A DNA stretch of 64,000 nucleotides from Pigmentiphaga aceris (GTDB taxonomy: Bacteria; Pseudomonadota; Gammaproteobacteria; Burkholderiales; Burkholderiaceae_B). Location of the stretch: the NCBI RefSeq assembly GCF_008119665.1, contig NZ_CP043046.1, positions 1,550,001 to 1,614,000 on the forward strand, given 5' to 3'. Positions 1,467 through 23,862 of the stretch are shown here, one piece after another. Position numbers and translations under genes: made by a program. The notes below the pieces were generated by a model. The model did no database searches and was not told where the DNA came from. It saw nothing but the letters and a program-made list of their open reading frames with translations. The first letter of the stretch is position 1. Every line of letters starts with the position of its first letter.

Positions 1467-1598
1467 ACTTTCTCCATTAATCCTGGCAGCCATTAGTAAC
1501 TGCTGTGCGAGCTCGCCTCAAGTTTCCAAAGCGAGATTATTTGAGAGCTGACAATTGTTTGTTCAGCATGTAGGGCAATGGAACATTGCTTCGTTAGT

Positions 1599-1748: not shown

Positions 1749-3875
1749 TCAGCGAATGGCTTGAATGAAACACGCTACGTTACCGAAGCTTGCCGGACCG
1801 TTGGGACCAGAGTCGCTCGTATTTGAGCTCGTCGACCAGTTCGATAGATAATCTGCGCCCTGGCGATAACCGGCTTCGTTAAGGCTTTCTGCGACAGTTC
1901 GGGCATGGTGCCGCACGCCCGCGTTGTTTGGTCCAGTACGGCGACCTACGTGCACTGCTCCGGCGAGCAGTTGCAAAGCCTGCTCTAGCGGTGTGGCAGC
2001 GGCGTTTTCGTGGTGGGGAAGGGAATTTGAGGCAGCGCCTGCTGGTACCGCCTCCAGATCCGGCACCAGCAGCCGGTCCGCCATTATCAACCACGGGTCG
2101 CAGATCAAGTTGTCGCTTTCCACGTACACCGGGCCGACGATGCGACGCAGTTTGCCGTATTGGCCGCTTAACGCCCTCGTGAGAGCTTCCAGTGCTTGGG
2201 GGGCTACCGCATCGTAACGCCGCTGCAGACGTAGTACACCTCCTTCGTTGGTCAACTGTACTGCCCCATGCCAACACTGTCCTCCCTCAGCCAGCGCCTG
2301 TCCAAGCACTTCCTCAATCTCAAACACCCGAACATCGCCGGTCGCATCATGCCGACGTACAAAAGCCGGTGGACGTGCGGACAGCGTTTCGATCAGCTCA
2401 TCGACATTCGCAACCATTAAGGGCGCACGCAATGCGGCGTTGCCGTCGTAGGGCATGGTTTGAGTCAACCCGCCACGCTGGCTACCCAGCACCAGCCTGC
2501 CGTCCACACGACGTTTTCCCGAACTGGTCAGAATCTGCCCGTGCGCGGCCGCAGACAACGACATGCCTGAAGAAAACTGGCGTTGCGCCAGCACCGCAGT
2601 GGAAGGCAACTTGGTGTCACGCGCCTGCGTAATACGACGCTCCAACACCATCACCGCACCAGTATCTAAGTCAGCCAACATCACACTGGCATCGACCTGC
2701 CCAGCATCACCGCGCAGGCGTGCGCCCAAAGAAACCAAGCGGGTGCGGCTCATTGCGGTTTCCAGCGATTCGCCGATACCTAACGCCACGCGTGGATCAG
2801 TCGTACGAGTGCGGGCGTAAAGCTCGGTGGCGTACTGCAATGCCAGCATTTCGTTGTGACGCGCGCTGCGGGCGGCGTAGGCGTCGATCTGTTGGGACAA
2901 GCCGTCCAGCGCAAGCAGGTATTGCACTGCCCCCAGCGTAGTAGCTGCGGCGCGGGCGTCGGCCAGGGGTTGGGCGAAGGCGTCGGGGCCGCTGCTCAGG
3001 CCTACGTCCAACAGTCTGGCCAGCAGGGCATCGCCTGCGACGCGCAGTGCGTCCAGGCGAGCTTCGGTTTTGGCGTCGAGCTGATTCCCGACCTGGGTGT
3101 CGTTTGCCCCTGTGCCGGAATCAATCGGCTCAAGACGCGTTTCTGTCGCGCCGCGTGCCTGCTTGAACGCCTGGATCGCCAGCGCAACGTGTACACAGTT
3201 TCCCCCCGCCACGCAGTCGCAGCGGGCGTAGGCCAGTACGTGCGGCACCAGGAAGCGCACGGTGGCCATGGGCAGGTGTGCGGCGGGGATCGCGCCTTGT
3301 TCCAGGCGCACGTCCAGCCGGGCGGCGCGTAGCCGTGTCAGTTCGGTACGCAAGGGGGCGGACAGCGACGCAGTGAATGCGTCGGCGTCCAGCTCCGCTG
3401 GGTCCCAAGCGGCACGGGCCGCAGGCGAGGTGGTGCCAGAAGTGTTTTTGCGCGCGTCTTGGTCAGGCGCTGTACTCGTACTGCTGCCAGTCGCTGTGCC
3501 TGCGTCTTGGCCCGCCTCGGTTCCTGCATCCTGGCCGGCGCTTGTCGCTGCGTTCGTGCTTGTGCTCGCAGCGGTCTCAACGTCAGCACCACCGCCCGCA
3601 CTCTGCTGCGCCTGATACGCCAGCACCAGCGTCACCCGATGACGACAAACACCACTCGCCGGGCAGGTGCACGTTGCATCGATCAGGCTGCGATCAGGTG
3701 CGAGCTTTGTCACCGTGCCGTCGGCAAAGTCGGCCTGAACCGAACCGTCGTCGCTCACCGTGATCGTGGGTGCCTTGCCCTCGGCCACATCACGTCGGCC
3801 GCGCTTGACCAAGCCTACATTCGCCAACTGCGCGAGCCCATCGTCACTCAAGGCGAGCAGATCGTGGCGGATCAT
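1749..3875 (-). CDS. double SWIM zinc-motif protein, YehQ-like
   Basis: A 708-residue protein with two SWIM zinc motifs of form CxCx5CxH: C69/C71/C77/H79 and C219/C221/C227/H229. A low-complexity linker rich in Ala, Gly, Gln, Asp and Thr (about 90-150) separates them. SWIM motifs bind zinc and mediate contacts with DNA or protein. E. coli YehQ is the likely counterpart, last gene of the yeh locus as here. The start at 3875 is preferred because MIRHDLLAL fits the usual N-terminus of this family. An in-frame TTG at 4022 would overlap the VWA gene and add 49 unlikely residues. No strong ribosome site is seen at 3875. It is the last gene of the MoxR/VWA set. The biochemical function is unknown. 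Confidence 0.7.
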   Translation of the reverse strand: MIRHDLLALSDDGLAQLANVGLVKRGRRDVAEGKAPTITVSDDGSVQADFADGTVTKLAPDRSLIDATCTCPASGVCRHRVTLVLAYQAQQSAGGGADVETAASTSTNAATSAGQDAGTEAGQDAGTATGSSTSTAPDQDARKNTSGTTSPAARAAWDPAELDADAFTASLSAPLRTELTRLRAARLDVRLEQGAIPAAHLPMATVRFLVPHVLAYARCDCVAGGNCVHVALAIQAFKQARGATETRLEPIDSGTGANDTQVGNQLDAKTEARLDALRVAGDALLARLLDVGLSSGPDAFAQPLADARAAATTLGAVQYLLALDGLSQQIDAYAARSARHNEMLALQYATELYARTRTTDPRVALGIGESLETAMSRTRLVSLGARLRGDAGQVDASVMLADLDTGAVMVLERRITQARDTKLPSTAVLAQRQFSSGMSLSAAAHGQILTSSGKRRVDGRLVLGSQRGGLTQTMPYDGNAALRAPLMVANVDELIETLSARPPAFVRRHDATGDVRVFEIEEVLGQALAEGGQCWHGAVQLTNEGGVLRLQRRYDAVAPQALEALTRALSGQYGKLRRIVGPVYVESDNLICDPWLIMADRLLVPDLEAVPAGAASNSLPHHENAAATPLEQALQLLAGAVHVGRRTGPNNAGVRHHARTVAESLNEAGYRQGADYLSNWSTSSNTSDSGPNGPASFGNVACFIQAIR

Positions 3876-4011
3876 GGGTTGTGCGTCCGAGTGCTCAGGG
3901 ACGCATTGCCTGCGAGCATGTTCGCCGGCCGTTTGCCTGCAGACGCTTGGTTCACAGTCCAATCTCGTGCAGTCTGCATCGCAGCGCACAGCTTCATTGT
4001 CGTCGTATCCA

Positions 4012-5154
4012 TCACTGTCCAATCTTCTCCGCCAACCATCCGGCCAATTCCCCCGGCGTCATCGCACCGACTTCCGCGCCCGCTGCCACCAGCCGATTCG
4101 CCATGTCCCGGTCATAAGCAGGATTGGCATCCGCATCCAGCGCGGCAAGCCCCAGCACCAAGCTGCGCTGGCTGGTCAGCGCACGCACGCGTTGGACCAG
4201 CATCTGTTCACTCGCGCCTTCATAAAAGTCGCTGATCAACACCACAATCGCACGCTCGGGGGTTTCGACCAGACTCGCGCCGTATCCCACCGCTTGCTGA
4301 ATATCGGTACCGCCACCCAGCTGCACTTTCATCAGTAGTTCACATGGGTCTTCCACATCCTTGGTCAGATCGACCACCTGGGTATCAAAGGCCACCAAGT
4401 GAGTTCGTATCCCAGGAAGGTTCCACAGGCATGCCGCGGTGACCGACGCATGAATCACCGAGCTGACCATTGACCCGCTCTGGTCCACCAGCAGAATGAC
4501 CTGCCACGGCCGCAGGTGCCGCTGCGACCGCGCGAAGAAGTGCACGCGTTCGACGGTGACGCGTTTGTTCACGGGGTCGTAGTTGCGCAGGTTGTCGCGC
4601 AGGGTGCGGCGTAAATCCAGGTTACGAGCACTACGCAGTCGTGTATGCCGACGACGGTCCAAGGTGCCTGAGAATGCGACCGCCATGTCTTTGGCCAGTT
4701 TCTCCATCAGCTTGCGAACGACCTCGGCAACCAACTGCCGCGCCAGTTGCAGAATGTCTGGCGACATCAAATGCTTGGTGCGCAACACCGCGCGCAGCAG
4801 GGTTTCGTTGGGCTCGGCGCGTTTCAGTACGTCGGGGTTGGTCACGACGTCATCGATGGCAAAGCGTTCGATGGCGTCGCGTTCCAGGCGTTCGATGGTT
4901 TCTTTGGGGAACAGGCGATGGATTTCGTTGATCCAGTCTGGCGTGCTCAGCCGCGAGCCTTCGCGGCCACCTTGTCGGCGCAGGTTGCGTTCGTCCTGAC
5001 CCTCGCCGCGCTGGTATAGCCAGTCCAGCGAGGCGTCCATGGCAAGTGCGTCACTGCTTAGCGTGCAGCCGGCGGCGCTGCATGCGCCGTCGGCTGACTC
5101 GCCCAGAATCAGGCGCCAGCGGGTCAGCGTGTCGAGTGCGGGTGGGGTGCTCAT
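4012..5154 (-). CDS. VWA-domain protein, YehP-like
   Basis: A 380-residue protein with a C-terminal von Willebrand A domain. The metal-binding MIDAS is intact: DQSGS (D224, S226, S228), then GGGTD and LISDF further on. The first 200 residues are helical and charged, as in CoxE/YehP-type proteins. Soluble VWA proteins encoded beside MoxR ATPases act as partners of that ATPase in metal insertion or remodelling of large protein complexes. That is family knowledge; the client here is unknown, and the adjacent WGR/DUF4132 proteins are the obvious candidates. The start lies 7 bases after the stop of the upstream WGR gene with no clear Shine-Dalgarno site, so translation is probably coupled. Length matches E. 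coli YehP (about 378 residues). Confidence 0.8.
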   Translation of the reverse strand: MSTPPALDTLTRWRLILGESADGACSAAGCTLSSDALAMDASLDWLYQRGEGQDERNLRRQGGREGSRLSTPDWINEIHRLFPKETIERLERDAIERFAIDDVVTNPDVLKRAEPNETLLRAVLRTKHLMSPDILQLARQLVAEVVRKLMEKLAKDMAVAFSGTLDRRRHTRLRSARNLDLRRTLRDNLRNYDPVNKRVTVERVHFFARSQRHLRPWQVILLVDQSGSMVSSVIHASVTAACLWNLPGIRTHLVAFDTQVVDLTKDVEDPCELLMKVQLGGGTDIQQAVGYGASLVETPERAIVVLISDFYEGASEQMLVQRVRALTSQRSLVLGLAALDADANPAYDRDMANRLVAAGAEVGAMTPGELAGWLAEKIGQ

Positions 5155-5161
5155 GGGGTGC

Positions 5162-8100
5162 TCACGTGCTTGCGCTGCTCGCTACCAGGCTTGGCACGCG
5201 CAGCAATTCGCTGATGCTGATGGGGTCCAGTTCACCAAAGGTGCGGCTAACTTTTTTGTTGCCTGAGCCTGAACCCCACGGGTCACCCAGCCCCAGGGTG
5301 CCCATTTTCTGGGTCTTGGGTTCGTACTCGGCGGCACCGGCGTAAATGCCCTCAGATATATGCATGTACACCTCACCTGGCTTGCCGTCGCTGAAGGTCA
5401 CGGGGCGTTCCAGCCAGACCGACACGCCGCCGTCTTGCGGTGAACCGATGTTCCATCCGCGTGTGCTCATGCCGCGCAGGCGGGTGGTTTCCACCTCGGA
5501 CTCGGCGAAGCGCGTAAGCGTGTGCAGCTCCCGTTCCTGGTCTTCCAGCGCGTAGGTTTCGCGGGACAGTTGCATAAAGGGCTGGGCGATTTCATAGTCC
5601 CCGAATACCGTGCCCCAGGCGGCGCGCGTGTCGGCATCCAGGTGCAGCGGGTGTACCAAGCCGATGCGGCTGCTTGCGTCTTCGGACAGGTCCACGTCAA
5701 GCGGGTCGTCGTTTACGTCTGCGGCCGACAGGTCTTCCGTCACGCGGAACACTTGGGTAGGCAGGCTGCGTGCATCGTCGTCGGCAAATACGCCCCACAC
5801 CAGGCGTTGCGTCAGGTGGCGGATCAAGGGGTGCGTCGCAAAGAAGGCATCGAACACGCTGGGTTTTACGCGGCGGGAATTGGCCAGCATGGATTCCAGT
5901 CGGGTGATCTGCAAGGACGCCACCGCACGCGCGTCTTTCTTCAGGGCGGACCATGTGGCGCTGGCCTGTTTGGACAGTTCCTCGTCGTCTGATTTGTTGG
6001 GCTTGGGCAGGTCTTTCAGGCGACGGCCTTCGGCGTCTTTCACCCAGGGCTTCAGGAATTCGTCGAAGCCTACGCGGAATTTGCGTTCGCCAAAGTCCAG
6101 GTCCATGCCGCCGCGTTCGTCCAGGTTCAGGTCGGGTGCAAGGCGGTCGGCAAGTTCTTCCGGCGTCAGGTCGCGGGCTTCGGCGATGACTGCAATTTTC
6201 TCGCGGGCTTTTTCCTGCAAGCCTTTGAACTTCAGTTTTTCTGCGATGCCGTTCAGGTTCATCAGCGCCACGTCGGTGCCAATGTCGGCCAGCACGTCCA
6301 GGCCGGTCACGGCGCGGGCATGTGCCGCTTCACCCGGCCATTTGCGGATCAGTTTGGTCAGCCTGCGTGCGCATTCGTCGTCGCCCAGCCAACCCACGCC
6401 GCGTAGCGCCCAGTTTTCCTTGGCGACAGCACCTTCGGACATCCAGGTCGAGAACACATCCCATGCGAAAGCAGCTGCGCTGTCGCGGGTCAATTCTTCA
6501 CGCACGCGCGCCACGCCCACGTACTGCTCGCCCGCTGCGCCCAGCATCAGCATCTCGCCCAGACCAAGCACGGCGTCGTCGGTCAGGGCACCGCTGCCGT
6601 CGGCCAACATGGGGCGCGACAGCACGGCGGGTTGGAACCAGTTGGGCAGTTTGGGTGGTTTGGATGGCACGTTGTCGGCAGCGTCGCGCGCAAGAATTTC
6701 GGCGACGGCATCGACCACACCGGGTTCTGCAGCCGCGTAGGCGGCGACGGCTTCGTCAATGGCTGCGCGGCCATCTTCTGTGTCAAACGCGTACCAGCGC
6801 AGCGTGTACTCGGCGACTTCCCGTGCTTCCCGTGCCTGGCTGGTTTTACCAACGGCGTCGGGAATCAAGCGCATCAACGCGGTGTGACGATGGCGGCGCA
6901 GCCAGGGCACGGCCAGCGCATGTGCCTTCTTCAATTTGGCCAATGCACGCGCGGCATGCGGCGCGATGTGTGCGCTGTCTACTGGCAAGGCCAGTTCCAG
7001 CATGCCCAGCGGGTCGCTGCCGACCAATGCCGCCATGCCGGGCGCGGCGCGTTCACCAAAGCGCTTGAACATCCGTGCGACGGTGGGTTCCCACGTCACA
7101 TAGCATTCCAGCGCTACCGTTGACAGTTCCCACAGAGCAAGCGTCAGCGTCTCGTGGTGAGTGGGCAGCGTGTCGTAAAGCTTCGCGTACTCGGTGCTGC
7201 TGATGTAGGTGTTGGCGGCGCGTGCTGCGCTTAAACGCTGCGTCAGCCACGTCACCCATTCTTCCCCCGACAATTCATCCACGGCGGGCAGGGGGGCGGC
7301 CGTGGGCGGCATGGGACGCCAGTTGGACTGCTTGCCACCTTCGGTGGCGTGTATGAAATCGCCAAGCTTGTCCAGGGTGTCGATCAGCGGCTTGGTTCGC
7401 GGCGGCATCTCGTCGCTGAGTTCGCCTTCGCTGTACACGAACGGCGTGGCAATCGGCTTGAGCGCAAGCACGGGTACCAGCTTGCCGCCCTTGCGGGCCG
7501 GGTTGCGCCAGGGGGCCTTGCGCAACAGGGCGGGGATGGCCTCGTCCGGTGCGGTAGCCGCATTACCGGCACTCAGGCGTTCGTCCAGGGTGGTAATGTC
7601 TTTCTCGCTCAGACCGTCGGCCCATTGGCGCACGGTCTGCTCACCGAATTTCGCAATCAATTCTGCCAGGCGGACTTTGATGGCAGGTTCGTCACGATGC
7701 TTGGTGGCCAGGCGCAGCAATTGCCGGAAGGTCCACACCGGGTAGGCCTTGCTGGCGGCATCTACGGCAGTGCGAATCCAGCGCTCGTGGAAGTAGGGCA
7801 GCAGCAAGCCCATCGCCTCGTCGTCGCGTGTTTCCAGCATGGCGCGCGCTGCCGTGGTGCGCCATGCTTCGGTTGCGTATTCCAGCAGCCAGTTCAGCGT
7901 GGACAGTGGCGATTCGTTGTAGTGGCGGCCAACCGCCATGGCGGTCGCCGCGATGCTTTCCAGCGAGGTCAGGGCATAGCGGTAGGTCAGGGTGTAGGGG
8001 CGCGTCTGGTGCCACTGCGCTGCCGCAGCCGGCGGCGCATCGATAATCAGCGGAAGCAGCGGCGATTGCGCAGGCACATCGGCACCCGCAGCCTGGGCTG

Positions 8101-9172
8101 CCTCTACCTGTGCCAGGGGCTTGAGTAGATGATCGCCGGGTCGGTCGTCGGCAAAGATGAACGCGTAGAACACACCATCGTCGGGGTCGGCCTGCGCGAG
8201 GTCCTGGGCGGCACGAAGCGCAGCGTCGTAGTCGGCTTCATCGGGCGTGGCGGGAAACGCCTGGCGCATGGCCAGGGTGAATGGCTGGGCCCAGGCGAAA
8301 TCCTGATAGCTTTGCTTGGGCTTTGCCGGTCGCGTCTGCTGCACGACGTCGATCATGGCCCGCGCACCCACGCTGGCGATGCCCAGCCGTACCAGGGCCG
8401 ACAAGCCGCCCAGGTAGTTCTCGAAGCGCCCTGTATAGAACATGCCGCCACGGCTGGTGATGTCATCCCACACGCGGCATGCATCGCGCTGCAAGGCGGT
8501 GATGGTCGCCAGATCGAAGGTCGGCGGGCTGTCCTTATCAATAGCTTTAAGGCGTTGCAGCTCGGTCGGTCGCTTCGAGCTTGACGCTTCGATGTCGGCA
8601 ATGTGTTTGCAAAAGGTCTTCCACTCTGCAGCCGCATCAATGGCTGGGCCAGGACGGCTGCGCGTGGTCAGTGCCTCGGCAGAAAACAGTACACCGTGGC
8701 GAGCGCATTCTTCTGCGAACGCAGTGGATGCATCTGTCGTTGCTGCGTCGGATTGGTCTTTCTGGCTGGTTGGCGCAGGCGCGCTGGACTTCTCAGCGGC
8801 GGCACTGTTGCTGTTCGTTTGCGCCACGGTAGAGGCAGCAGCGGCGTCTACTTTCTCACTGGTCGATGGCGATTCGCTGGCTGCGGGGGTAGCCATCGTC
8901 GCTGCCTTCTCCACCTTCGGTTTGGCAACGACAGGCGCACTGGCAGCCGGCACCGGGCTGGGCCCGCTTCCGGTCAGCGCATAGCCCTTGCCGGTCTTTT
9001 CCTTGACCAGTTTCAGCTTTTCTTTTTCCGCCGCAGCGGCATCGGCAAACTGTTTGTCTTTGGTCTGGCCATTGGTGCCGATGCGGCCAAAACGCACGGT
9101 TACGGTGTCGCCAGTAACCGAGACTTCCCAGAATTTCGATGCACTGCCTTCAACCAGTTCGTAGCGTTCCAT
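5162..9172 (-). CDS. WGR/DUF4132 giant protein, copy A (YehI-like)
   Basis: A 1,336-residue protein, third and last of three tandem paralogues in transcription order. It has an N-terminal WGR domain (about 1-70; core VRFGRIGTNGQ), a low-complexity Ala/Ser/Thr linker (about 75-165), a long helical-repeat-like middle, and a C-terminal DUF4132 region (about 1000-1200). WGR domains occur in PARPs and other nucleic-acid-linked proteins, while DUF4132 has no known activity. E. coli YehI (MolR family) has the same build. The start at 9172 is chosen because all three copies then begin MERYELVEGS; a start 18 codons upstream breaks this match. The WGR and DUF4132 parts are nearly identical to the other copies, while the linker and the part up to about residue 600 differ. 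It lies 65 bp after copy B and 7 bp before the VWA gene. Confidence 0.75.
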   Translation of the reverse strand: MERYELVEGSASKFWEVSVTGDTVTVRFGRIGTNGQTKDKQFADAAAAEKEKLKLVKEKTGKGYALTGSGPSPVPAASAPVVAKPKVEKAATMATPAASESPSTSEKVDAAAASTVAQTNSNSAAAEKSSAPAPTSQKDQSDAATTDASTAFAEECARHGVLFSAEALTTRSRPGPAIDAAAEWKTFCKHIADIEASSSKRPTELQRLKAIDKDSPPTFDLATITALQRDACRVWDDITSRGGMFYTGRFENYLGGLSALVRLGIASVGARAMIDVVQQTRPAKPKQSYQDFAWAQPFTLAMRQAFPATPDEADYDAALRAAQDLAQADPDDGVFYAFIFADDRPGDHLLKPLAQVEAAQAAGADVPAQSPLLPLIIDAPPAAAAQWHQTRPYTLTYRYALTSLESIAATAMAVGRHYNESPLSTLNWLLEYATEAWRTTAARAMLETRDDEAMGLLLPYFHERWIRTAVDAASKAYPVWTFRQLLRLATKHRDEPAIKVRLAELIAKFGEQTVRQWADGLSEKDITTLDERLSAGNAATAPDEAIPALLRKAPWRNPARKGGKLVPVLALKPIATPFVYSEGELSDEMPPRTKPLIDTLDKLGDFIHATEGGKQSNWRPMPPTAAPLPAVDELSGEEWVTWLTQRLSAARAANTYISSTEYAKLYDTLPTHHETLTLALWELSTVALECYVTWEPTVARMFKRFGERAAPGMAALVGSDPLGMLELALPVDSAHIAPHAARALAKLKKAHALAVPWLRRHRHTALMRLIPDAVGKTSQAREAREVAEYTLRWYAFDTEDGRAAIDEAVAAYAAAEPGVVDAVAEILARDAADNVPSKPPKLPNWFQPAVLSRPMLADGSGALTDDAVLGLGEMLMLGAAGEQYVGVARVREELTRDSAAAFAWDVFSTWMSEGAVAKENWALRGVGWLGDDECARRLTKLIRKWPGEAAHARAVTGLDVLADIGTDVALMNLNGIAEKLKFKGLQEKAREKIAVIAEARDLTPEELADRLAPDLNLDERGGMDLDFGERKFRVGFDEFLKPWVKDAEGRRLKDLPKPNKSDDEELSKQASATWSALKKDARAVASLQITRLESMLANSRRVKPSVFDAFFATHPLIRHLTQRLVWGVFADDDARSLPTQVFRVTEDLSAADVNDDPLDVDLSEDASSRIGLVHPLHLDADTRAAWGTVFGDYEIAQPFMQLSRETYALEDQERELHTLTRFAESEVETTRLRGMSTRGWNIGSPQDGGVSVWLERPVTFSDGKPGEVYMHISEGIYAGAAEYEPKTQKMGTLGLGDPWGSGSGNKKVSRTFGELDPISISELLRVPSLVASSAST

Positions 9173-9237
9173 GTGGTGCAAGTTTCCTATTCTTAAACTA
9201 AGTAGAGCGTCGTGTTGCAGGTTCAAGCCGCGGGTGC

Positions 9238-13233: not shown

Positions 13234-13298
13234 AGGGAGCGAATTTCCTTTTTTTCGTTAGCCGCAGGGCCATTGAGTCGCAGCATGTGATCGGAAGC

Positions 13299-16200
13299 TC
13301 ATGCCCCCGCGCTGCTTGCCACCAGGCTTGGCACGCGCAGCAGTTCGCTCGCGCTGATCGGGTCCAGGTCACCAAAGCTGCGGCCAGATTTGCCTTGGCG
13401 GGCGTTCGATCCCCACGGGTCGTCCAGGCCCATGGTGCCCATCTTCTGTGTCTTGGGTTCGTATTCCTGGGCACCCGCATAGATGCCTTCGGAAATGTGC
13501 AGGTAGACCGTGCCCGTCTTGCCGTCGGCAAAGTTCACCGGGCGTTCCAGCCACATCGACACGCCACCGTCCTGCGGGGCACCGATTTGCCAGCCGCGCG
13601 TGCTCATGCCACGCAGTCGGGTGGTTTCGACCTCGGCATCGGCGAAGCGGCTGATCGTATCCACGCCGCGTTCGGCCTCGTCCAGCACATAGGTTTCGCG
13701 GCCCAGTTGCAGGAAGGGCTGGGCAATCTCGTAATCGGCGAACACCGTGCCCCAGGCGGCGCGGGCTTCGTCGTCCAGTTGCAGCGGGTGCACCAGGCCG
13801 ATTCGATAGTTGGCATCCGCCGACACATCCAACTCGACTGGGTCGTCGTTCACATCGGCTGCCGACAAGTCTTCCGTGAGGCGGAACACCTGCGTGGGTT
13901 TGGATGTTGCGTGGTCATCGGCAAACGTGCCCCACAGCAGCCGCTGGGTCAGGTGGCGGATCAGCGGATGGGTCGCAAAGAAGACCTGAAACACCTCGGG
14001 TTTCACCCGCCGCGAATTGGCCAGCATCGCTTCCAGTCGCGTGATCTGCAGTGATGCAATGGCGCGCGCGTCTTTCTTCAGCGTCGACCAGGTGGCGCTG
14101 GCTTGCTTGGACAGTTCCGGATCGTCCGACTTGTTCGGCTTGGGCAGGTCTTTCAGGCGACGGCCTTCTGCATCTTTCACCCATGGCTTCAGGAACTCGT
14201 CGAAGCCTACGCGGAATGTGCGTTCGCCGAAGTTCAGATCCAAGCCACCGCGTTCGTCCAGACCCAGGTCGGGGGCCAGGCGGTCTGCAAGTTCTTCGGG
14301 CGTCAGGTCCCGTGCCTCGGCAATCGCAGCGATCTTTTCGCGGGCCTTTTCCTGCAAGCCTTTGAACTTCAGCTTTTCGGCGATGCCGTTCAAATTCATC
14401 AGGGCGACATCGCTGCCGATGTCCGTCAGCACTTCAAGGCCGGTCACGGCGCGGGCATGTGCCGCTTCACCCGGCCACTTGCGAATCAGCTTGGTCAGGT
14501 TGCGTGCACATTCGTCGTCGCCCAGCCAGCCCACCGCTCGCAGCGCCCAGTTTTCCTTGCCCGGTGCGCCTTCCGACATCCATGCCGAAAACACATCCCA
14601 AGAGAACGCCGCAGCACTTTCCGGCGTCAGTGCCGCGCGTGTGCGCGCCACGCCTACATACGGCTCGCCAGTTGCGCCGAGCATCAGCATTTCGCCCAGG
14701 CCGCGCACTGCGTCGTCCGATAGCGCGCCGGCACCACTGGCCAGTTCCGGGCGGGTGAACAAGGCGGCTTGGAACCAGATCGGCAGCTTGGGCGGTTTGG
14801 ACGGTACGTTGTCGGCAGGGTCTTGCGCCACTACCTGGTCGATGGACTCCTTAACCTCGGGGTTGGACGCTGCATAGGCGGCCACTGCCTCGTCGAGGGC
14901 GGCGCGACCATCTTCAGCGTCATCAACGAACCAGCGCAAGGTCTGGGACGCTGCGTCGCGCAACGCACCGGGCTTGCCCATGGCGTCGGGGATCAGCCGC
15001 ATCATCGCCGTCCGGCGGTAGCGGCGCAGCCACGGAATGGCCAGCGGTGACCCTTTTTTCAGCTTGGTCAGGGCACGTGCCGCATGCGGTGCAATGTGTG
15101 CGCTGTCTACCGCCATCGCATGGGGCAGGAAGTACAAGGGATCTTGACCCACCAGCACGCCAAAGCCTGGTGCTGCCCGCTCGCCAAAGCGCTTGAGCAT
15201 GCGTGCAGTCGTGACCTCCCAGTTCAGGTAGAACTCCTGCGCAACAGCGGGCATTTCCCACAGTGCAAGCGACAGGCTTTCGTGATGCATGTGGATCGTG
15301 GCGTACAGCTGCGCATAATCCGTGGAGGTCAGGTAAGCGTTTGCCGCGCGTGCTGCCTTAAGTCTGGCGACGACCCATTCAAGCCATTGTTCGCCCGACA
15401 GTTCGCTGGCGGCAGGCAGGGAGTCCAGCGCCGGCATGGATCGCCAGCCCGGCTTCTGGTTCTTCTCGGCCCGATGCACGAAGGTGGCAAGCTCCGTGAG
15501 TTTTTCCATCACCATGGGCTGGCCGCGCATGGGTGCCTCATCGCTTAGCTCGTCGGTAGCAAAGGCGAAGGGCGTATCGATAGGCGTCAAGGACAGCACG
15601 GTGATGGGCTTGCCTGCCTTGGATGCCGGTGTGCGCCAAGGCATGCTGCGCAGAATGGCGGGCAATGCATCGTCGGCAGCAATGGCGACGTCTCGGACCG
15701 CAAAACTCCGTTCGAGTGCCGCAGTTTCCTTGGCACCCAGCCCTTCTGCCCACTGGCGCACATTAGCTTCCCCGTGCGTGGCGATCACTTCTGCCAGCCG
15801 TGCTTTGATGGCTGGCTCAACGCGACTGCTGGCCGCGAGTCCAAGCAGCTGGCGGAAGCTCCATACCGGATAAGCCTTGATCGCGGCATCGAGCGCAGCC
15901 CGTATCCAGCGTTCATGCAGGTAGGGCAGCAGTACCGCAAAAGCGCTTTCGTCACGCGTTTCCAGCAAGGCACGTGCGACGGTGGTGCGACGGCCTTCAT
16001 CTGCGTAGTGCAGCAACCATTCCAGTGCGGGCAGTGCAGACTCGCCGTGATGGCGGGCAACTTCAGTCAAGGTCGCCGCCACCGTTTCCGGCGATACGTG
16101 CAGGTAGACGAAATAGAACAGGTACTGGCGCTTCTGACGCCATGCGGCAACGGCCGATGGCGGCGCATCGGCAAGCAGTGGCAGCAGCGAGGAGTTCGAC

Positions 16201-17312
16201 GCAATATCGATGTTGGCAGCGGCGGCTGCCTGAAGCTGTGACAACGCCTGCAATGCATGGCTGGCGGGGCGGTCATCAGCGAACACAAACGTGAAGAAAG
16301 TTGCCAGGCTTGGGTCGGCCGCGACGGCGTCCTGCGCAGCATTCAGCGCCGCGTCGTAGTCGGCATCGCTGGCAATGGCCGTGAACGCCTGCCGCATTGC
16401 CAGCGCATACGGCTCTGCCCAGGCCAAGTCTTGATAGCCCCGGTGCTTCGGGGGAACCGGCGTGGCGCGTTGGACCACGTCGACCATGGCTTGCGCGCCC
16501 AGCGTGGCGATGCCCCAGCGTGCCAGGGATGCCAGGCTGCCGATCCGGTCGTCGGTCACTGACGACCCCTCGCGGTAATTGCCCGAGCTGGCAACTTCCC
16601 ACACGACGGCAGCATCGTTCAGCCAGGTCACCATTGCGTCCAGATCGACGGTTGGCGGCGTGTCGGCGTCACGCTCCTTCAGCCTGCGCAATTCAGCAGG
16701 CCGATCCCTGGCTTCTTTTGGCAGCGCGGCCATGTGCTGGCGATACGCCGCCCAGTCGCGTGCTGCATCGATGGTGGCGCGCGGGCGGCTGCGCGTGGGA
16801 AGGGCGGTGCCTTTGAATAGCAGACCGTGGCGGGCGCTTTCTTCTGCGAAGGCGGCCGAGGCGTTGGCTGACGGGCTGGTAACGTCAGCAGTGCTGTCCT
16901 TCGGGGACGCATCAAGGGCGTCGGGCGCGGTCGTTGCATCGGCGGCTTTCTCGGGCGAAGGTGGAGGTGCCGCTGCGGCGCTCGATGCATGCTCATCGGT
17001 CGCGTCGTCTTTTGCCGTGGCTGTCTTCGCCTTTGTCGTTGTTGCCTTCGCGGCCTTGGGTGCTGCGGCAGGCGTTGCACTGGCCGCAGGTGCCGGGCTT
17101 GGCCCGCTTCCCGTCAGCACATATCCCTTGCCAGTCTTTTCCTTGACCAGTTTCAGCTTTTCTTTCTCGGCTGCAGCTGCGTCGGCCAGTTGCTTGTCCT
17201 TGGTCTGACCATTGGTGCCAATGCGTCCGAAGCGCACGGTTACCGTGTCGCCAGTCACCGAGACTTCCCAGAATTTCGCTGCACTGCCTTCAACCAGTTC
17301 GTAGCGTTCCAT
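13299..17312 (-). CDS. WGR/DUF4132 giant protein, copy C (YehI-like)
   Basis: A 1,337-residue paralogue, first of the three to be transcribed, 18 bp after the DUF5682 gene. It has AGGAG nine bases ahead of the ATG, the best ribosome site of the three copies. Domain order is as in copies A and B: WGR core VRFGRIGTNGQ (near residue 30), a linker of Ala, Pro, Thr and Lys (about 75-150), a variable middle, then the conserved block containing LKDLPKPNKSDD and the DUF4132 end. The classical WGR tryptophan is a phenylalanine in all three copies. Because it follows the MoxR and DUF5682 genes directly, it may be the ancestral copy, but this is inference. Confidence 0.75.
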   Translation of the reverse strand: MERYELVEGSAAKFWEVSVTGDTVTVRFGRIGTNGQTKDKQLADAAAAEKEKLKLVKEKTGKGYVLTGSGPSPAPAASATPAAAPKAAKATTTKAKTATAKDDATDEHASSAAAAPPPSPEKAADATTAPDALDASPKDSTADVTSPSANASAAFAEESARHGLLFKGTALPTRSRPRATIDAARDWAAYRQHMAALPKEARDRPAELRRLKERDADTPPTVDLDAMVTWLNDAAVVWEVASSGNYREGSSVTDDRIGSLASLARWGIATLGAQAMVDVVQRATPVPPKHRGYQDLAWAEPYALAMRQAFTAIASDADYDAALNAAQDAVAADPSLATFFTFVFADDRPASHALQALSQLQAAAAANIDIASNSSLLPLLADAPPSAVAAWRQKRQYLFYFVYLHVSPETVAATLTEVARHHGESALPALEWLLHYADEGRRTTVARALLETRDESAFAVLLPYLHERWIRAALDAAIKAYPVWSFRQLLGLAASSRVEPAIKARLAEVIATHGEANVRQWAEGLGAKETAALERSFAVRDVAIAADDALPAILRSMPWRTPASKAGKPITVLSLTPIDTPFAFATDELSDEAPMRGQPMVMEKLTELATFVHRAEKNQKPGWRSMPALDSLPAASELSGEQWLEWVVARLKAARAANAYLTSTDYAQLYATIHMHHESLSLALWEMPAVAQEFYLNWEVTTARMLKRFGERAAPGFGVLVGQDPLYFLPHAMAVDSAHIAPHAARALTKLKKGSPLAIPWLRRYRRTAMMRLIPDAMGKPGALRDAASQTLRWFVDDAEDGRAALDEAVAAYAASNPEVKESIDQVVAQDPADNVPSKPPKLPIWFQAALFTRPELASGAGALSDDAVRGLGEMLMLGATGEPYVGVARTRAALTPESAAAFSWDVFSAWMSEGAPGKENWALRAVGWLGDDECARNLTKLIRKWPGEAAHARAVTGLEVLTDIGSDVALMNLNGIAEKLKFKGLQEKAREKIAAIAEARDLTPEELADRLAPDLGLDERGGLDLNFGERTFRVGFDEFLKPWVKDAEGRRLKDLPKPNKSDDPELSKQASATWSTLKKDARAIASLQITRLEAMLANSRRVKPEVFQVFFATHPLIRHLTQRLLWGTFADDHATSKPTQVFRLTEDLSAADVNDDPVELDVSADANYRIGLVHPLQLDDEARAAWGTVFADYEIAQPFLQLGRETYVLDEAERGVDTISRFADAEVETTRLRGMSTRGWQIGAPQDGGVSMWLERPVNFADGKTGTVYLHISEGIYAGAQEYEPKTQKMGTMGLDDPWGSNARQGKSGRSFGDLDPISASELLRVPSLVASSAGA

Positions 17313-17330
17313 GTGTGTGGGCTCCTGTAT

Positions 17331-19679
17331 TTACTGGGTTGAGCGGGGCGGCGGCAACACCAGGCCCGCGCGCGCCATGCGCGCCACGGCCCGTTGCTCG
17401 GCCGCCAGTGCGTAGGCTTGTTGATCCAGCGGCACGCTTTGCCGCATCCAGTGCATGGCGTCGGCTTCCGCTTGTGCGGGTGCCATGCCATGTCGGGTCA
17501 GCAGCGCGCGTGCAATGCGTTCGCGTTCGCGTGGCGGGAACCATGCAAATGCTTCGCGCAGCGGTGGCAGCGCACGCAGAAAATCGCCGTCGTGCCAGTC
17601 CGCGACCAGTTCTTCGACGGCTTGCATGGCACCTTGATCGGTGCCGATTTCGTCACGGGCCAATGCAAACAAGCCGATCAGAAAATCGCCAAGCTCGGTA
17701 GGCTGCGACACGCGCCGAATGCGTGCATCGACACCATCGGCGGCTGTTTCGCCGCAAGCTATGCGCAGGCCCAGGGCCGCGCCCGCCAGTGTGGGCGGGC
17801 TGTCGGTCGATGTGATGCAGCGTGCTGCCGTCGCCAGAAAGGAGTCCCGCGCAAGCGGGATTTCCGGGCAGTCGCGCAGCAGGTCGCGGCAGGCCTGCAT
17901 GGCGGTCACGGCTTGTTTGCCATCGCCTGTGGCCTGGGGCGATTCCAGCAACCAGCCGGTCTGTTCGAACCCGGCTTGTGCCAGCCGGGCCAGGCCCGCA
18001 CGTGCATCCGCACCGAAGATGTCGCCGAAGCGGTACAGGGACACAATGCGTCGATGCGCTTTGCCCAGTGCACCCAGGTCGTGGGCCTGGCTCAATGCGG
18101 CATCAAGTGTTTTGACGGTGCCGTCGTGGGCGTCCATCAGCCCGGCGAACAAGGCATCCGACAAGGTGTTTGCCAGGCTGGCAATGTCGGTGTCGCGCGC
18201 CGCCAGGCAGCCTGATGCCGCCGCCTCCAGCGTGCCGCCCCAGCGCGATGCTTCGATCAGCGCGCCGTGCAGATCGCGGTGGCGGGTGATGCGGAAATTT
18301 TCGCTTGGCGTGCGGGTATCAGCCAAGGGCGTGCCGCCCACGCGCTCGAACCCCGGAATGCCCAGAATGCGCAGCGCGTGCAGCACATGCGCGCGCCTGC
18401 GATCTTCTGGCAGGCTCCAGTCCAGCTGCACCTCGCGTGGCATGGTCTGCGGTTCCAGCGTCAGCTGTCTCAGCAGTTCCTGAATTTCTAGCAGCAATGG
18501 TGGTTCGCGTGTACCTGCCGCAAGCTGGCCTTCACGTTTGCCGGACAGGGCGTGCAGCATGGTGCCCAGGAACGGATGCGCGCGCAGACCGCGTTGGCTG
18601 GACCAGTCGGGCACTTGGTCCAGGCCGTCTTTCAGCAGCGTGGACAGGGCACCATCCAGCAGGTCGTGGCGCAGCGCTGCACGATGACCGCGCAGGCGTG
18701 CCAGTCCTTCGGCTTGTGCTGCCCACGCGATGCGGTCTGCGGTGGACACCACTTGGCCGCGCTTGCGCAAAGTGCGTGTAATCACCGTGTATGCCCAGTC
18801 GCTTGCGCGGGCCAAGCCGTGTTGCCAAACCTGTTCGTAATACGCAGGGGAAGGCATGCCCGCCGCGTAGCCATTCAGGCGGTCAAGGCGAGGGTAGCTG
18901 TAGGGCACCAGATAACTGTCGACGCGGGTATCGCCATCCGGTTGGGGTGTGTCCGGCAGCTCAGCGCCATCGACACTGCGGGCAATTCGGCGGATGGCGT
19001 CGGCATGCCAGCCACCGCACACCAGCACCACCGGTCTTCCTGCTGCCTGGCGTACTGCCCAGGCGGCGTAGCGTCCCATGTGCTGTTCGCGTGCGGCTTC
19101 GCTGGGGTCTTCTGCGCCGTCGGGGCGAAGCAAGGCGAAGTATTGCGCCAGCCGCGCGGGCAGGGCATCTGGGTCGGCCTGTTCGGCCAAGGCATCCCAC
19201 AAGGCATCCAGGTCTTGCTCGCCCAGGCGGCTGGCCAATGCGGTTTCCACTGCGTCGATGTGCAGGCCGTGCGGATCGGCGTAGCGATTGGGCGTGTCGC
19301 CGAATGCACGTGTCCAGGCGGGCAGGTCGCAAAAGAGCGGCGTGGCACCTGTTTCGAAGGCAGCCGACAAGGCTTGCCATTCCGGGGAGTATTCGCAGAA
19401 TGGCGCGTAAGACGAGCGGCTGTCGTTTGGCCCGGCATGAAAGCTGAAGATGGCTACCGGCAGCGTGTGCGGGCGTTTCAAGTCTGCAATGTGCGGGTTG
19501 AAGTCGGCCGGGCCTTCGACCAGCACAAAGGCCGGGCGCGTGGACGCGATCACCTGGCGCACGTGGCGTGCGCAGGCAGGCGAGTGGTGACGGACGCCGA
19601 TGACGATCAGGCCGTCGTCTGATTGACCGGGATGCTCGCTCACCGTGCTGCTTGCTGCATGCATGGCATGCACGCTCAT
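17331..19679 (-). CDS. DUF5682-family protein, YehM-like
   Basis: A 782-residue protein of a family always found with MoxR/VWA genes. The N-terminus (about 24-100) carries the family block IGVRHHSPACARH followed by VLVEGPADFN and the FSFHAGPNDSRSSYAPF stretch. No enzymatic motif with known activity is recognised. The rest is mostly helical. The length agrees with E. coli YehM (about 759 residues), which also follows the AAA ATPase gene. Its ATG overlaps the stop of the MoxR gene by four bases (ATGA), so the two are translationally coupled and probably made in fixed ratio. A role as adaptor or client-linked factor for the ATPase is inference. Confidence 0.7.
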   Translation of the reverse strand: MSVHAMHAASSTVSEHPGQSDDGLIVIGVRHHSPACARHVRQVIASTRPAFVLVEGPADFNPHIADLKRPHTLPVAIFSFHAGPNDSRSSYAPFCEYSPEWQALSAAFETGATPLFCDLPAWTRAFGDTPNRYADPHGLHIDAVETALASRLGEQDLDALWDALAEQADPDALPARLAQYFALLRPDGAEDPSEAAREQHMGRYAAWAVRQAAGRPVVLVCGGWHADAIRRIARSVDGAELPDTPQPDGDTRVDSYLVPYSYPRLDRLNGYAAGMPSPAYYEQVWQHGLARASDWAYTVITRTLRKRGQVVSTADRIAWAAQAEGLARLRGHRAALRHDLLDGALSTLLKDGLDQVPDWSSQRGLRAHPFLGTMLHALSGKREGQLAAGTREPPLLLEIQELLRQLTLEPQTMPREVQLDWSLPEDRRRAHVLHALRILGIPGFERVGGTPLADTRTPSENFRITRHRDLHGALIEASRWGGTLEAAASGCLAARDTDIASLANTLSDALFAGLMDAHDGTVKTLDAALSQAHDLGALGKAHRRIVSLYRFGDIFGADARAGLARLAQAGFEQTGWLLESPQATGDGKQAVTAMQACRDLLRDCPEIPLARDSFLATAARCITSTDSPPTLAGAALGLRIACGETAADGVDARIRRVSQPTELGDFLIGLFALARDEIGTDQGAMQAVEELVADWHDGDFLRALPPLREAFAWFPPRERERIARALLTRHGMAPAQAEADAMHWMRQSVPLDQQAYALAAEQRAVARMARAGLVLPPPRSTQ

Positions 19680-20794
19680 GCAGTCAGACGATGTCGTGCC
19701 GCGTACAGTTCGCGCCAGACATCACCCTTGCGTTTGGACACGCGCTGTTCAAGATACCGGCGCAACTTGGCCAGGTCATCGGCGTTGTCCTTGGCAGCAG
19801 TACCGGCCAGACATTCGACAATGTCTTCGGCCCGTCCATTGTCGCCACGCATGAAGTGTCCGCGCACGCCAATGGCATGCGCCATGCTCACGGCCTCGGC
19901 CGTGCTCATCACGGATGACAGGCGTTCCATGCCCTTGCCGCCGTCGTCCGTGCCTTCACGCAGTTCGCGAAAGCACGTCACCAGCACACGCAGCACGTCG
20001 ACATGCGGGGCCTGCGGCACGCCCGAGCGAAGCAGCAGCGCAGCCGATTCCCGCTGCACCAGCGCCAGCTCGTCTTCCAGGTCTGCAATGGGGAACACGG
20101 TTTCGAAGTTGAAGCGGCGCTTCAACGCTGCCGACATATCGTTCACGCCCCGGTCGCGGGTGTTGGCGGTGGCAATGACGTTGAAGCCATCACGCGCGAA
20201 CACCATGGCCGAATCGCTTTTCAGTTCAGGCACGGCCAGCACGCGGTCGGACAGCACCGACAGCAGGCTGTCCTGCACTTCCAGCGGGCAACGTGTGATT
20301 TCCTCGAAGCGCACCACACGGCCTTCACGCATGCCGCGATACAAGGGGGCGGGTACCAAGGCGCGTTCGGTCGGGCCTTCGCTGACCAGCAAGGCGTAAT
20401 TCCAACCGTATTTGATCTGGTCTTCAGTTAGCGACGCGCCACCCTGAATCGTCAGCGTCGAATCCCCACTGACCGCAGCGGCCAGCAATTCCGACAACAG
20501 ACTTTTGGCGGTGCCAGGCTCACCAATCAACAGCAGCGCGCGCGAGGTCGCCAAGGTGACCATCGCGCGTTCGATCAGCGCGGGCGAGCACACCAGCTTG
20601 GGCGGCGAACCGTTGCCGCCCAGGATGAATTGCTTGACGCTTGCCAGTGACATGCTCCAGCCAGGGGGCCGCGCGGCGGTGTCGGCCGCACGCAGGGCAG
20701 CCAGTTCGTCTGCATAGCGCAGCTCGGCAGGTGGCCGTTGCCAGCTGGTGGAGTTTTCTTGCGCCGCGGGGGCTTGCACCGGTTTTGCAGTCAA
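19676..20794 (-). CDS. MoxR-family AAA+ ATPase, YehL-like
   Basis: A 372-residue AAA+ ATPase. Walker A is GEPGTAKS (91-98), the Walker B acidic pair is FEEI (163-166) with Glu in place of the usual Asp, and sensor 1 lies in IATANTRDRGV (about 208-218). MoxR ATPases work with VWA partners as ATP-driven chaperones for enzyme maturation or complex remodelling. The start is placed at a TTG with AAGGAG seven bases upstream; an ATG 41 codons earlier would add a Cys/Pro-rich tail not typical of the family. It is the first gene of the set. A TAATAAT box at 20813-20819 (minus strand) lies just upstream and could be the -10 of the promoter, with a very short leader. Length matches E. coli YehL. Confidence 0.8.
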   Translation of the reverse strand: MTAKPVQAPAAQENSTSWQRPPAELRYADELAALRAADTAARPPGWSMSLASVKQFILGGNGSPPKLVCSPALIERAMVTLATSRALLLIGEPGTAKSLLSELLAAAVSGDSTLTIQGGASLTEDQIKYGWNYALLVSEGPTERALVPAPLYRGMREGRVVRFEEITRCPLEVQDSLLSVLSDRVLAVPELKSDSAMVFARDGFNVIATANTRDRGVNDMSAALKRRFNFETVFPIADLEDELALVQRESAALLLRSGVPQAPHVDVLRVLVTCFRELREGTDDGGKGMERLSSVMSTAEAVSMAHAIGVRGHFMRGDNGRAEDIVECLAGTAAKDNADDLAKLRRYLEQRVSKRKGDVWRELYAARHRLTA

Positions 20795-21030
20795 CGACTC
20801 GCTCCTTGCAGAATTATTAGCCGGGTTTAATGGCCAAGTTCGCAATGGTAGAGCGTAGACGGCGAAATATCCGTGGCAAAAGGTTAGCGGCGAGCCAGCG
20901 GTGCAGTGGTTGGCCACCGGAACTGGTTACGAACACCTGACTGTCGGTACCCATCTGAATAGATGGCGATGGTCGGCACAACAATCATCCGCGTGCCTTC
21001 CATCGCCAGCACAAGCTGCGTTGACGTGCT

Positions 21031-21273
21031 TCAGCGTCCGCGCACGATGCGCAGTCCGATTCCCAGCGCAATCATGATGCCGCCGTAGACCTGGGCGAAC
21101 AGTTCGCCCTTGTACACGCCCACGGCAAGCAGCAGCACGCCCAGCCCTACCGCAACGCCCCAGTGAGCGTTACCCAGCTTGTTCAGCAAGCCGATGCGGC
21201 GTGGGGTGGTCGATGTTGCTGCGGGCTGCGCGCGGCCCGCATCGGGGCGCTCATCTGGGCGCGGAGCTGCCAT
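21031..21273 (-). CDS. small membrane protein, unknown
   Basis: An 80-residue protein with a Pro/Arg-rich polar start (about 1-27) and a hydrophobic remainder that probably makes two membrane helices (about 36-55 and 59-75), ending in basic RIVRGR. No family is recognised. Its ATG shares one base with the stop codon of the transaldolase gene (TAATG), the classical arrangement for translational coupling, which is the main reason to accept it as a real gene. The link with transaldolase need not be functional. Confidence 0.55.
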   Translation of the reverse strand: MAAPRPDERPDAGRAQPAATSTTPRRIGLLNKLGNAHWGVAVGLGVLLLAVGVYKGELFAQVYGGIMIALGIGLRIVRGR

Positions 21274-23801: not shown

Positions 23802-23862
23802 CCGCCGCCCCGCAGCCACGCATCAAGCTCCGCAATCAAACAGACAAGCAGTTAGGCGTCCC

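Follow-up and report, generated by a model that had tools for sequence, protein, structure and literature searches.

A seven-gene MoxR-VWA locus encoding DUF5682, SWIM and three WGR-DUF4132 proteins, related to the E. coli yeh genes

Organization of the locus

The window, the whole 64,000-nucleotide stretch of DNA analysed here, carries a module of seven genes, all on the minus strand. Head to tail, they encode a MoxR AAA+ ATPase, a DUF5682 protein, three WGR-DUF4132 proteins (D1, D2 and D3), a VWA protein and a double-SWIM protein. All seven genes are intact, and neighbours overlap or lie at most 65 bases apart, which bears out the single tight co-directional string of the preliminary description. 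The MoxR gene (19676..20917) is of the YehL subfamily and matches AAA_5 in Pfam with an E-value of 3e-36. Its frame opens with GTG at 20917, but TTG at 20794, the start given in the preliminary description, is the better one because AAGGAG lies directly ahead of it. The YehM-like DUF5682 gene (17331..19679) matches PF18934 with an E-value of 4e-102. D1 (13299..17312) is composed of a WGR domain (residues 9-66), a helical solenoid and a DUF4132 tail (residues 1050-1241), and D2 (9238..13233) and D3 (5162..9226) have the same architecture. Pfam finds WGR and DUF4132 (E 7e-47 to 5e-48) in each of them. All frames are open, and the three copies are intact, as had been claimed. Register with D1 and D2 makes ATG at 9172, rather than 9226, very likely the start of D3. 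The D genes encode 1331-1354 amino acids versus 1210 for YehI, and no other DUF4132 gene was found in the 6.17-Mb genome. The string ends with a CoxE-type VWA gene (4012..5154; VWA_CoxE PF05762, E 6e-57) and the gene of a YehQ-like protein with two SWIM motifs (1749..4022; PF04434, E 6e-4, one stretch).

The locus is a seven-gene relative of the uncharacterised E. coli yehI-L-M-P-Q genes. MoxR, DUF5682, VWA, SWIM and WGR-DUF4132 genes are contiguous on one strand, and the same five families stand contiguous and co-directional in E. coli as yehF/H-yehI-yehK-yehL-yehM-yehP-yehQ. The match to this set that was first proposed holds for gene content, and the set is the closest named relative; lengths agree only roughly, and the order is D-D-(K)-MoxR-DUF5682-VWA-SWIM in E. 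coli versus MoxR-DUF5682-D-D-D-VWA-SWIM in the window, with identities of 26-61%. An intact E. coli strain has two tandem D genes ahead of yehK-L-M-P-Q, while in K-12 the first D gene is broken.

Related loci were compared in a set of named loci, the best 80 of 529 confirmed, picked by likeness to the window DUF5682. The order MoxR-DUF5682-VWA is kept in 80 of these best 80. The same gene string includes SWIM in 78 and D in 71, and nine show no D within this contiguous string. D precedes MoxR in 64 of the 80, and seven share the window arrangement with D between DUF5682 and VWA. The form found in Rhizobium, Agrobacterium, Shinella and Methylobacterium (L043-L049) has a gene order identical to that of the window and a DUF5682 protein 53-55% identical, but one or two D copies versus three; the window D genes form a clade of their own.

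MoxR-VWA pair and SWIM protein

The MoxR protein has an intact Walker A motif (GEPGTAKS) and a Walker B motif ending in FEE. Over 354 columns it shares 61% identity with YehL (E 2e-155), while RavA is unmatched at 1e-3; with the Walker motifs intact, this places it closer to YehL than to RavA in a comparison within the two MoxR proteins of E. coli. According to the available text of PMC3893208, YehL represents one of seven MoxR subfamilies, and E. coli K-12 has a single further MoxR protein besides it. The VWA protein, 56% identical to YehP, retains the MIDAS elements DQSGS, GGTD and ISD. The SWIM protein is 26% identical to YehQ (E 3e-39) and has motifs at residues 118 and 268, the second seen by pattern alone, as Pfam reports one stretch. 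Among the named loci (best 80 of 529), counting matches above a length limit, Walker A is present in 81/81 MoxR proteins, SWIM in 74/74 and DxSGS in 77/80 VWA proteins; the counts of 81 take in an additional, partial module of L085. Other patterns in this set are incomplete, with Walker B in 74/81, GGT[DS] in 77/80 and the third MIDAS element in 53/80, and only 15 of the 74 SWIM proteins have two SWIM motifs. Judging by the domain names WGR and SWIM, nucleic acid may be a target.

The earlier reading of the MoxR-VWA pair as a remodelling motor agrees with the available text of the literature on such pairs (PMC13036017, PMC7159879). NorQ/NorD and CoxD/CoxE share with the window a MoxR ring and a MIDAS-bearing VWA protein, of CoxE type in the window. 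By analogy, the pair could open a client enzyme for metal insertion, with DUF5682, D and SWIM proteins as helpers and D (MolR) tying the module to molybdenum enzymes. We consider such cofactor maturation unlikely, although the CoxE-type VWA favours it, several MoxR-VWA pairs of known role insert metals (PMC13036017, PMC7159879, in the parts available), and ChaN, the family to which DUF5682 is compared below, is named for haem uptake in Pfam. Unlike NorQ/NorD and CoxD/CoxE, the module carries DUF5682, D and SWIM proteins, and no client enzyme is seen alongside. No metalloenzyme is evident among the scanned module neighbours in the window or E. coli loci, and a client may be encoded elsewhere. 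The accessible part of PMC8533742 points both ways: it considers the DUF4132 region of Deinococcus DRA0166 as possibly acting in molybdopterin biosynthesis, but moeA and moeB gave no response in the DdrO experiment. No housekeeping maturation role for the locus was found in the literature searched. The open-access literature searched, with subscription journals mostly outside it, gave no function for YehL.

Fold and two branches of DUF5682

DUF5682 probably consists of an N-terminal TIKI/TraB/ChaN-like domain (approximately residues 20-262), a moderately supported assignment, and an all-helical solenoid. Residues H31, H32, E55, D118, R197, E198, M201, G222 and H225 are invariant in all 86 alignment rows. 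The TIKI/TraB/ChaN signature, which we take to be GxxH, E and GxxH in this order and which is also seen here in TraB rows, is present: H31, E55, H225 and G222 occur in 86/86 rows and G28 in 83/86. A narrow pattern, GGxH[AV], matched only 24/81 proteins, yet the alignment has the histidine in 86/86 rows. In the profile comparison, ChaN aligns with DUF5682 with Prob 55 and E 1e-4 over 85 columns in the second half of the N-domain. As controls, VWA, MoxR and the C-part of DUF5682 were each compared with ChaN and TraB; all six pairs have Prob below 1, and ChaN against TraB, two accepted relatives, reaches Prob 19; TraB against DUF5682 is weak (Prob 3.3). Set A3 contained 53 of 120 proteins listed among at least 1627, and A4 contained 50 rows, with 120 listed among at least 594. 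The AlphaFold2 model of DUF5682 has a mean pLDDT of 87.6, and its top match among viral models (BFVD) is a TraB family protein with prob 1.00 and E 0.011, with an rmsd of 10.8 over 249 columns. In the PDB there was no sequence match and no fold match at E 0.001. Pfam ChaN matches 4/54 DUF5682 proteins weakly (best E 0.033), and some unrelated Pfam families match single members at lower E-values (0.003-0.02). Some members of TIKI-type folds lack the catalytic residues.

In the phylum sample, DUF5682 falls into two branches, A paired with WGR-DUF4132 and B with DUF5691. DUF4132 is close by in 8/9 branch A loci and DUF5691 in 0/9; in branch B, DUF5691 lies within 2 kb in 6/6 loci and DUF4132 is nearby in none. 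No kinship between DUF5691 and DUF4132 was detected with hhalign (Prob 0.6). The Deinococcus-type branch B locus, SWIM-DUF5691-MoxR-DUF5682-VWA, shares the SWIM protein with the window module and has DUF5691 where the window has WGR-DUF4132; MoxR, VWA and DUF5682 are 48%, 36% and 27% identical to those of the window. The DUF5691 branch is missing among the 80 named loci because these were selected by likeness to the window DUF5682. This partner swap is new here, as is the probable assignment of the N-domain.

WGR-DUF4132 proteins

D1 and D2 are 74% identical, and D3 is 66% identical to either. The model of D1 residues 155-1337 has a mean pLDDT of 88.8. The proposed comparison of DUF4132 copy number across genomes shows that the number varies: among the named loci (best 80 of 529), 38 have at least two D copies and 20 at least three, counting partial and edge-cut copies, and five loci hold three full copies. 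Of the 84 DUF5682 loci, 19 are truncated at an edge. Two or more D copies are therefore common, and triplication as an oddity was rejected. D genes occur also without the module.

The differences among D1-D3 are greatest in the region separating the WGR head from the DUF4132 tail, as they are among D proteins of separate loci. Mean solenoid identity of same-locus versus between-loci pairs is 0.43 versus 0.35 at tail identities of 0.55-0.65, 0.49 versus 0.38 at 0.65-0.75 and 0.58 versus 0.53 at 0.75-0.85. Only in the top bin (0.85-0.92) are same-locus pairs lower, 0.64 versus 0.71, with two same-locus pairs, one of them D1/D2 (0.66). Same-locus pairs are thus no more diverged than between-loci pairs in three of the four bins, and a diversifying solenoid was rejected as not shown. 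The suggestion that three copies are exceptional or mark a diversifying conflict system is not supported, given this general lack of solenoid excess and the frequency of multiple copies.

Multi-copy loci hold 95 D copies, and 80 of these have their nearest copy at a different locus; for several Methylobacterium copies, the nearest row is a database entry from the same strain or from a sister strain. The D tree omitted copies shorter than 650 HMM columns. The D copies are old, mostly separate lineages, and this placement makes distinct roles plausible. Alternatively, D1-D3 could share one job, with tandem duplication lifting the dose and the copies drifting. The three window genes group in a small clade of their own, the solenoids show no general excess of divergence, and D1/D2 identity at fourfold sites is raised to 0.80 in the final 240 residues, a pattern like that left by gene conversion, all in keeping with a dosage effect. 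It is nevertheless improbable, given the extra-locus relatives of most copies and a fourfold-site identity among D1-D3 of 0.40-0.65 in 31/42 stretches, which indicates that the copies are old, yet all are still open.

Genomic setting

The locus was probably acquired, as none of the 10 congeneric genomes examined has it, DUF4132 included, and its neighbours are HNH-effector-like and OLD-like genes. DUF4132 is rare in the order (9/300). Outside the module, at 186..1493 on the minus strand, lies a gene with 50% GC for a protein whose N-terminal region (residues 25-131) matches the SAVED-HNH and endonuclease effector models of PADLOC (best E 2e-17). An OLD/AriA-like ATPase gene follows 3.7 kb beyond. 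On the other flank, an 80-residue ORF (21031..21273, minus strand) between a transaldolase gene and MoxR had no match at a usable E-value in five congener loci.

These neighbours, the patchy occurrence and the variable D copy number would suit an anti-phage or inter-bacterial conflict system with the D copies as diversified sensors. The vWA-MoxR ternary conflict systems (VMAP, iSTAND, beta-propeller), as described in the available part of PMC7159879, have a MoxR-VWA motor with further proteins in common with the window, and MoxR matches NCBIfam MadB and GvpN weakly, far below the cut-offs. We find this reading quite unlikely. No third component of the ternary systems, VMAP and iSTAND domains included, is found in the module by Pfam at E 0.01, although remote versions may be present, and bpMoxR reaches 18 bits, short of its cut-off of 27. 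PADLOC 2.0.0 on the seven module proteins gave one borderline match (E 0.009) and no catalogued anti-phage system. Among 50,697 phage records, DUF5682 has one match at 27% identity and D1 none, and same-locus D copies show no general excess of solenoid divergence. The DUF5682 gene, sporadic in the group of the window, is near-core in E. coli; its retention in 5284/5426 genomes makes the yeh gene unlike a typical conflict system.

Proposed mechanism

In our best model, with a probability of about 0.4, an ATP-driven MoxR-VWA motor acts on or through the TIKI-like DUF5682 with the D proteins as scaffolds, perhaps induced by stress. It supposes that the proteins form a complex, that DUF5682 hydrolyses, that D proteins recognize and that a signal induces the module. 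By analogy with NorQ/NorD, the MoxR ring would pull or twist its VWA partner, and the MIDAS site of VWA would grip the client. The motor would work on, or through, DUF5682, with its putative hydrolase domain and helical solenoid. D1-D3 may be exchangeable recognition scaffolds, in which the WGR head and the DUF4132 tail are conserved and the solenoid between them varies, and the SWIM protein may be an additional adaptor for nucleic acid or protein. No functional evidence on any locus member was found. More broadly, ATP-driven machines of a two-branch family, in which MoxR-VWA controls a TIKI-like hydrolase, DUF5682, and targets are read by interchangeable scaffolds, either DUF5691 or giant WGR-DUF4132 proteins amplified to between two and four copies, might serve a DNA-damage-linked protein-processing response that nearly all E. 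coli have retained, which we hold to be doubtful. The anatomy opens the question to experiment: DUF5682 has residues that may be catalytic, the five proteins form a defined set for reconstitution, DUF4132 and DUF5691 replace each other as partners, and the scaffolds of multi-copy loci are singly removable.

DNA damage and LexA-type sites

Use under stress is probable, with DNA damage as the best lead. In the available parts of PMC11039860 and PMC3978071, molR is listed as LexA-regulated, and in that of PMC8533742, Deinococcus DRA0166 (DUF4132) and DR2173 (WGR) rise upon DdrO depletion. In E. coli, the strict LexA consensus with three mismatches allowed found nothing. A looser pattern, shaped by the published molR box, gives one LexA-box-like site, 9 bases ahead of yehF; 8 of 100 shuffles give at least one such site. 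In the window, an exact GTTC-N7-GTTC direct repeat lies in the gap before MoxR (20920..20934, minus strand). Alphaproteobacterial LexA boxes have this form, which may not be that of the host. Four exact copies, in either orientation, occur in the 64-kb window, corresponding to approximately 0.015 expected in the 236-base gap. No exact CTGTN8ACAG was found near the window operon.

LexA control as a family rule was rejected, as the position of LexA-type patterns ahead of the module operons is not consistent. A scan of 84 loci for four exact patterns gave 75 sites, of which 23 precede a module match by no more than 700 bases; several repeat a single Lentzea site, and most of those near modules fall inside the preceding gene. 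Among 46 other named loci, only L057 has exact GAACN7GAAC, the other orientation of the window repeat, ahead of its first module gene. Five of the seven Rhizobium-type loci have no exact copy at 800 bases or less from the MoxR match, and two have one, at 559 bases in L046 and at 308 bases in L047, here apparently inside a small ORF.

A conserved motor with an exchanged large partner

The module is real, well conserved and already known, and P. aceris is an added member with three WGR-DUF4132 genes (D1, D2 and D3) in Rhizobium-type order. In the window, seven intact genes for MoxR, DUF5682, D1, D2, D3, VWA and a two-SWIM protein run on the minus strand from 20917 (more likely 20794, the preferred MoxR start) to 1749. 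Gaps between them are at most 65 bases, or the genes overlap slightly, and the preliminary description of a co-directional and tightly packed string stands. By motif patterns, MoxR carries Walker A and Walker B and VWA carries MIDAS elements. The consensus scan of 20001–24000 found no sigma-70-like site, and the minus strand has no terminator-like sites between module genes; the seven genes are likely to form a single predicted transcript. No further DUF4132 genes were found elsewhere in the genome (one contig, 6.17 Mb).

In a phylum sample of 398 genomes, 15 DUF5682 matches exceed the cut-off, spread over 14 genomes. By bit score they split into branch A (328–371, nine loci, window included) and branch B (658–865, six loci). 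DUF4132 lies within a few kb on the same contig at eight of the nine branch A loci, and at the ninth (genome G471) on a different contig of the draft; it is beside none of the six branch B loci. All six of these have DUF5691 within 2 kb, and no branch A genome has DUF5691 except G143 (L035, G143:C24), which holds branch A with three tandem D genes and branch B with DUF5691 on different contigs. A Deinococcus plasmid carries the full branch B module of SWIM, DUF5691, MoxR, DUF5682 and VWA. No sequence kinship between DUF5691 and DUF4132 was detected. The motor is common to both branches in this sample, and the large partner is swapped. We see D as a recognition or scaffold part mainly because the motor is kept while the large partner is exchanged.

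Excerpts of published work on MoxR-VWA systems describe a ring that pulls its VWA partner, with the client held by the MIDAS (PMC13036017, PMC7159879, PMC9976466). The MoxR ring would pull VWA in the same way here, and the motor may act on or through DUF5682 in a complex whose targets would be chosen by D1–D3. The function of the YehL-type family is a testable question.

Gene order and copy number

Scanning for DUF5682 with each species represented by a single genome yielded 529 confirmed relatives, and the best 80 were kept. Among these best 80 of 529, all 80 loci have the order MoxR-DUF5682-VWA; 78 have SWIM within the same gene string, and 71 have D there. D precedes MoxR in 64 and lies between DUF5682 and VWA in seven (L043–L049); the other nine have a contiguous string that lacks D. 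The window shares the D position between DUF5682 and VWA with the Rhizobium/Methylobacterium form. At least two D copies are present in 38 of the best 80 of 529 and at least three in 20, with partial and edge-cut copies included; five loci have three full copies. One intact E. coli strain has two D genes. Because multi-copy loci are so frequent, having three copies falls inside the normal spread, and the triplication is not exceptional as first proposed. In E. coli K-12 (L042:6475–10270), yehF and yehH are fragments of one broken WGR-DUF4132 gene that is intact in other strains, and part of a published report describes a DUF4132 region interrupted by a transposon in one ST131 sublineage (PMC9334617).

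Six sequence stretches (L027, L030, L031, L032, L033 and L034) contain D with no MoxR, DUF5682, VWA or SWIM within them, and genomes G316 and G502 have DUF4132 and lack DUF5682. Pfam finds no WGR in the D relatives P0127, P0128 and P0192, the first two of which are each listed on a contig of 9181 bases. From sequence, WGR seems dispensable in some D copies.

Divergence among D copies

The D tree holds 228 sequences, with 95 copies from 40 multi-copy loci. The nearest neighbour is in another locus for 80 of the 95 and in the same locus for 15. Separate lineages of copies run across species in both Lentzea and Methylobacterium, and the window triplication falls inside a small clade with database proteins P0123–P0125, apart from the Methylobacterium duplications. 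D1–D3 are old copies, since their fourfold-site identity is mostly 0.40–0.65 (31 of 42 stretches; range 0.32–0.81). Between D1 and D2 it reaches 0.80 over the last 240 residues (13299–14020 and 9238–9960), which suggests gene conversion between their 3' parts.

Identity among D1–D3 is 67–95% in heads and tails and 31–78% in the solenoid middle; the tail-to-middle contrast is also present between D proteins of different loci. At equal tail identity (33 same-locus versus 6841 between-locus pairs), same-locus solenoids are less diverged than between-locus ones in three of four bins. The fourth bin, with two same-locus pairs, one of them D1/D2, shows them more diverged. Separate roles for the copies are plausible; the comparisons do not demonstrate diversifying selection.

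The DUF5682 protein

The AlphaFold2 model of DUF5682 is confident (mean pLDDT 87.6) and has two parts, an alpha/beta domain that ends near residue 262 and helices after it. Across 86 sequences there is little or no variation at G28-V-R-H-H, E55, D118, R197-E-x-x-M and G222-G-x-H225. The profile matches ChaN with Prob 55 and E 1e-4 over 85 columns, covering the second GxxH and not the first, and TraB weakly (Prob 3.3); as benchmarks, ChaN-TraB gives Prob 19 and six control pairs give <1. Pfam ChaN matches four of 54 members (best E 0.033) and is the one additional family to hit more than two of them, while single members match unrelated Pfam families at lower E. The best-scoring viral structure model belongs to a TraB family protein (prob 1.00, E 0.011); the PDB gave no sequence match and no fold match at E 0.001. 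The N-domain is likely a member of the TIKI/TraB/ChaN superfamily, an assignment with moderate support, and may be a hydrolase. That superfamily, according to part of one paper, includes proteases, esterases and a member that lacks the catalytic residues (PMC6254334).

Genomic setting and possible regulation

None of the ten other genomes examined in the genus has DUF4132; across the order, 9 of 300 genomes carry it, P. aceris counted. One flank of the module consists of transaldolase and carA, a pair that stands side by side in each of the five congener loci read. On the other flank, five ORFs read have 40–56% GC versus ~62% for most of the window. A 435-residue HNH-effector-like protein (186–1493) adjoins the SWIM gene; its N-terminal 100 residues match SAVED-HNH and endonuclease effector models, and no Pfam family scored above the cut-off. 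An OLD/AriA-like ATPase of 706 residues (L015:9910–12030, G000:C1:1545910–1548030 in the same genome) lies 3.7 kb past the SWIM gene. It is AAA_15/OLD-like with a weak Toprim match, its gene has 50% GC, and its top PADLOC models are AriA and Old. No empty site for module insertion could be defined.

Acquisition of the module by the P. aceris lineage is the simplest reading, because its DUF5682 is closer to Rhizobiales proteins (51–57% identity among the matches listed; 53–55% to Rhizobium-type loci within the best 80 of 529) than to L028 (~40%), which is the nearest of the full modules read within the order. A simple donor story is weakened, since P0071, a protein named Accumulibacter, is likewise 53% identical among the matches listed.

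An exact GTTC-N7-GTTC direct repeat lies at 20920–20934, in the 236-base gap before MoxR, where ~0.015 would be expected from window frequency. This is the form taken by alphaproteobacterial LexA boxes. A LexA-box-like site also occurs 9 bases before E. coli yehF. In passages of two papers, E. coli molR is counted as a LexA-regulated gene (PMC11039860, PMC3978071). As part of another describes, DdrO depletion in Deinococcus radiodurans strongly raises DRA0166 (DUF4132) and DR2173 (WGR) and leaves moeA and moeB with no rise (PMC8533742). DNA damage may be the inducing signal, but LexA control of the module is only a lead, because LexA-type sites have no consistent placement across module loci.

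Stability and mobility

Of 5426 complete E. coli genomes, 5284 carry the DUF5682 gene, and 5166 match it over 80% or more of its length. Among 72,556 plasmid records, 35 match DUF5682 and 19 match D1, several of these records being chromosome-sized. Because the gene is near-universal in E. coli and plasmid and phage matches are few, this does not look like the usual distribution of an accessory defence system, though the P. aceris copy adjoins defence-like genes. The proposed likeness to conflict systems is weakened, keeping those neighbours in its favour. Among 50,697 phage records, none matches D1 and one matches DUF5682: L169 (MT835988.1), a phage clone of metagenomic origin and unverified, with a DUF5682-like stretch that is 27% identical.
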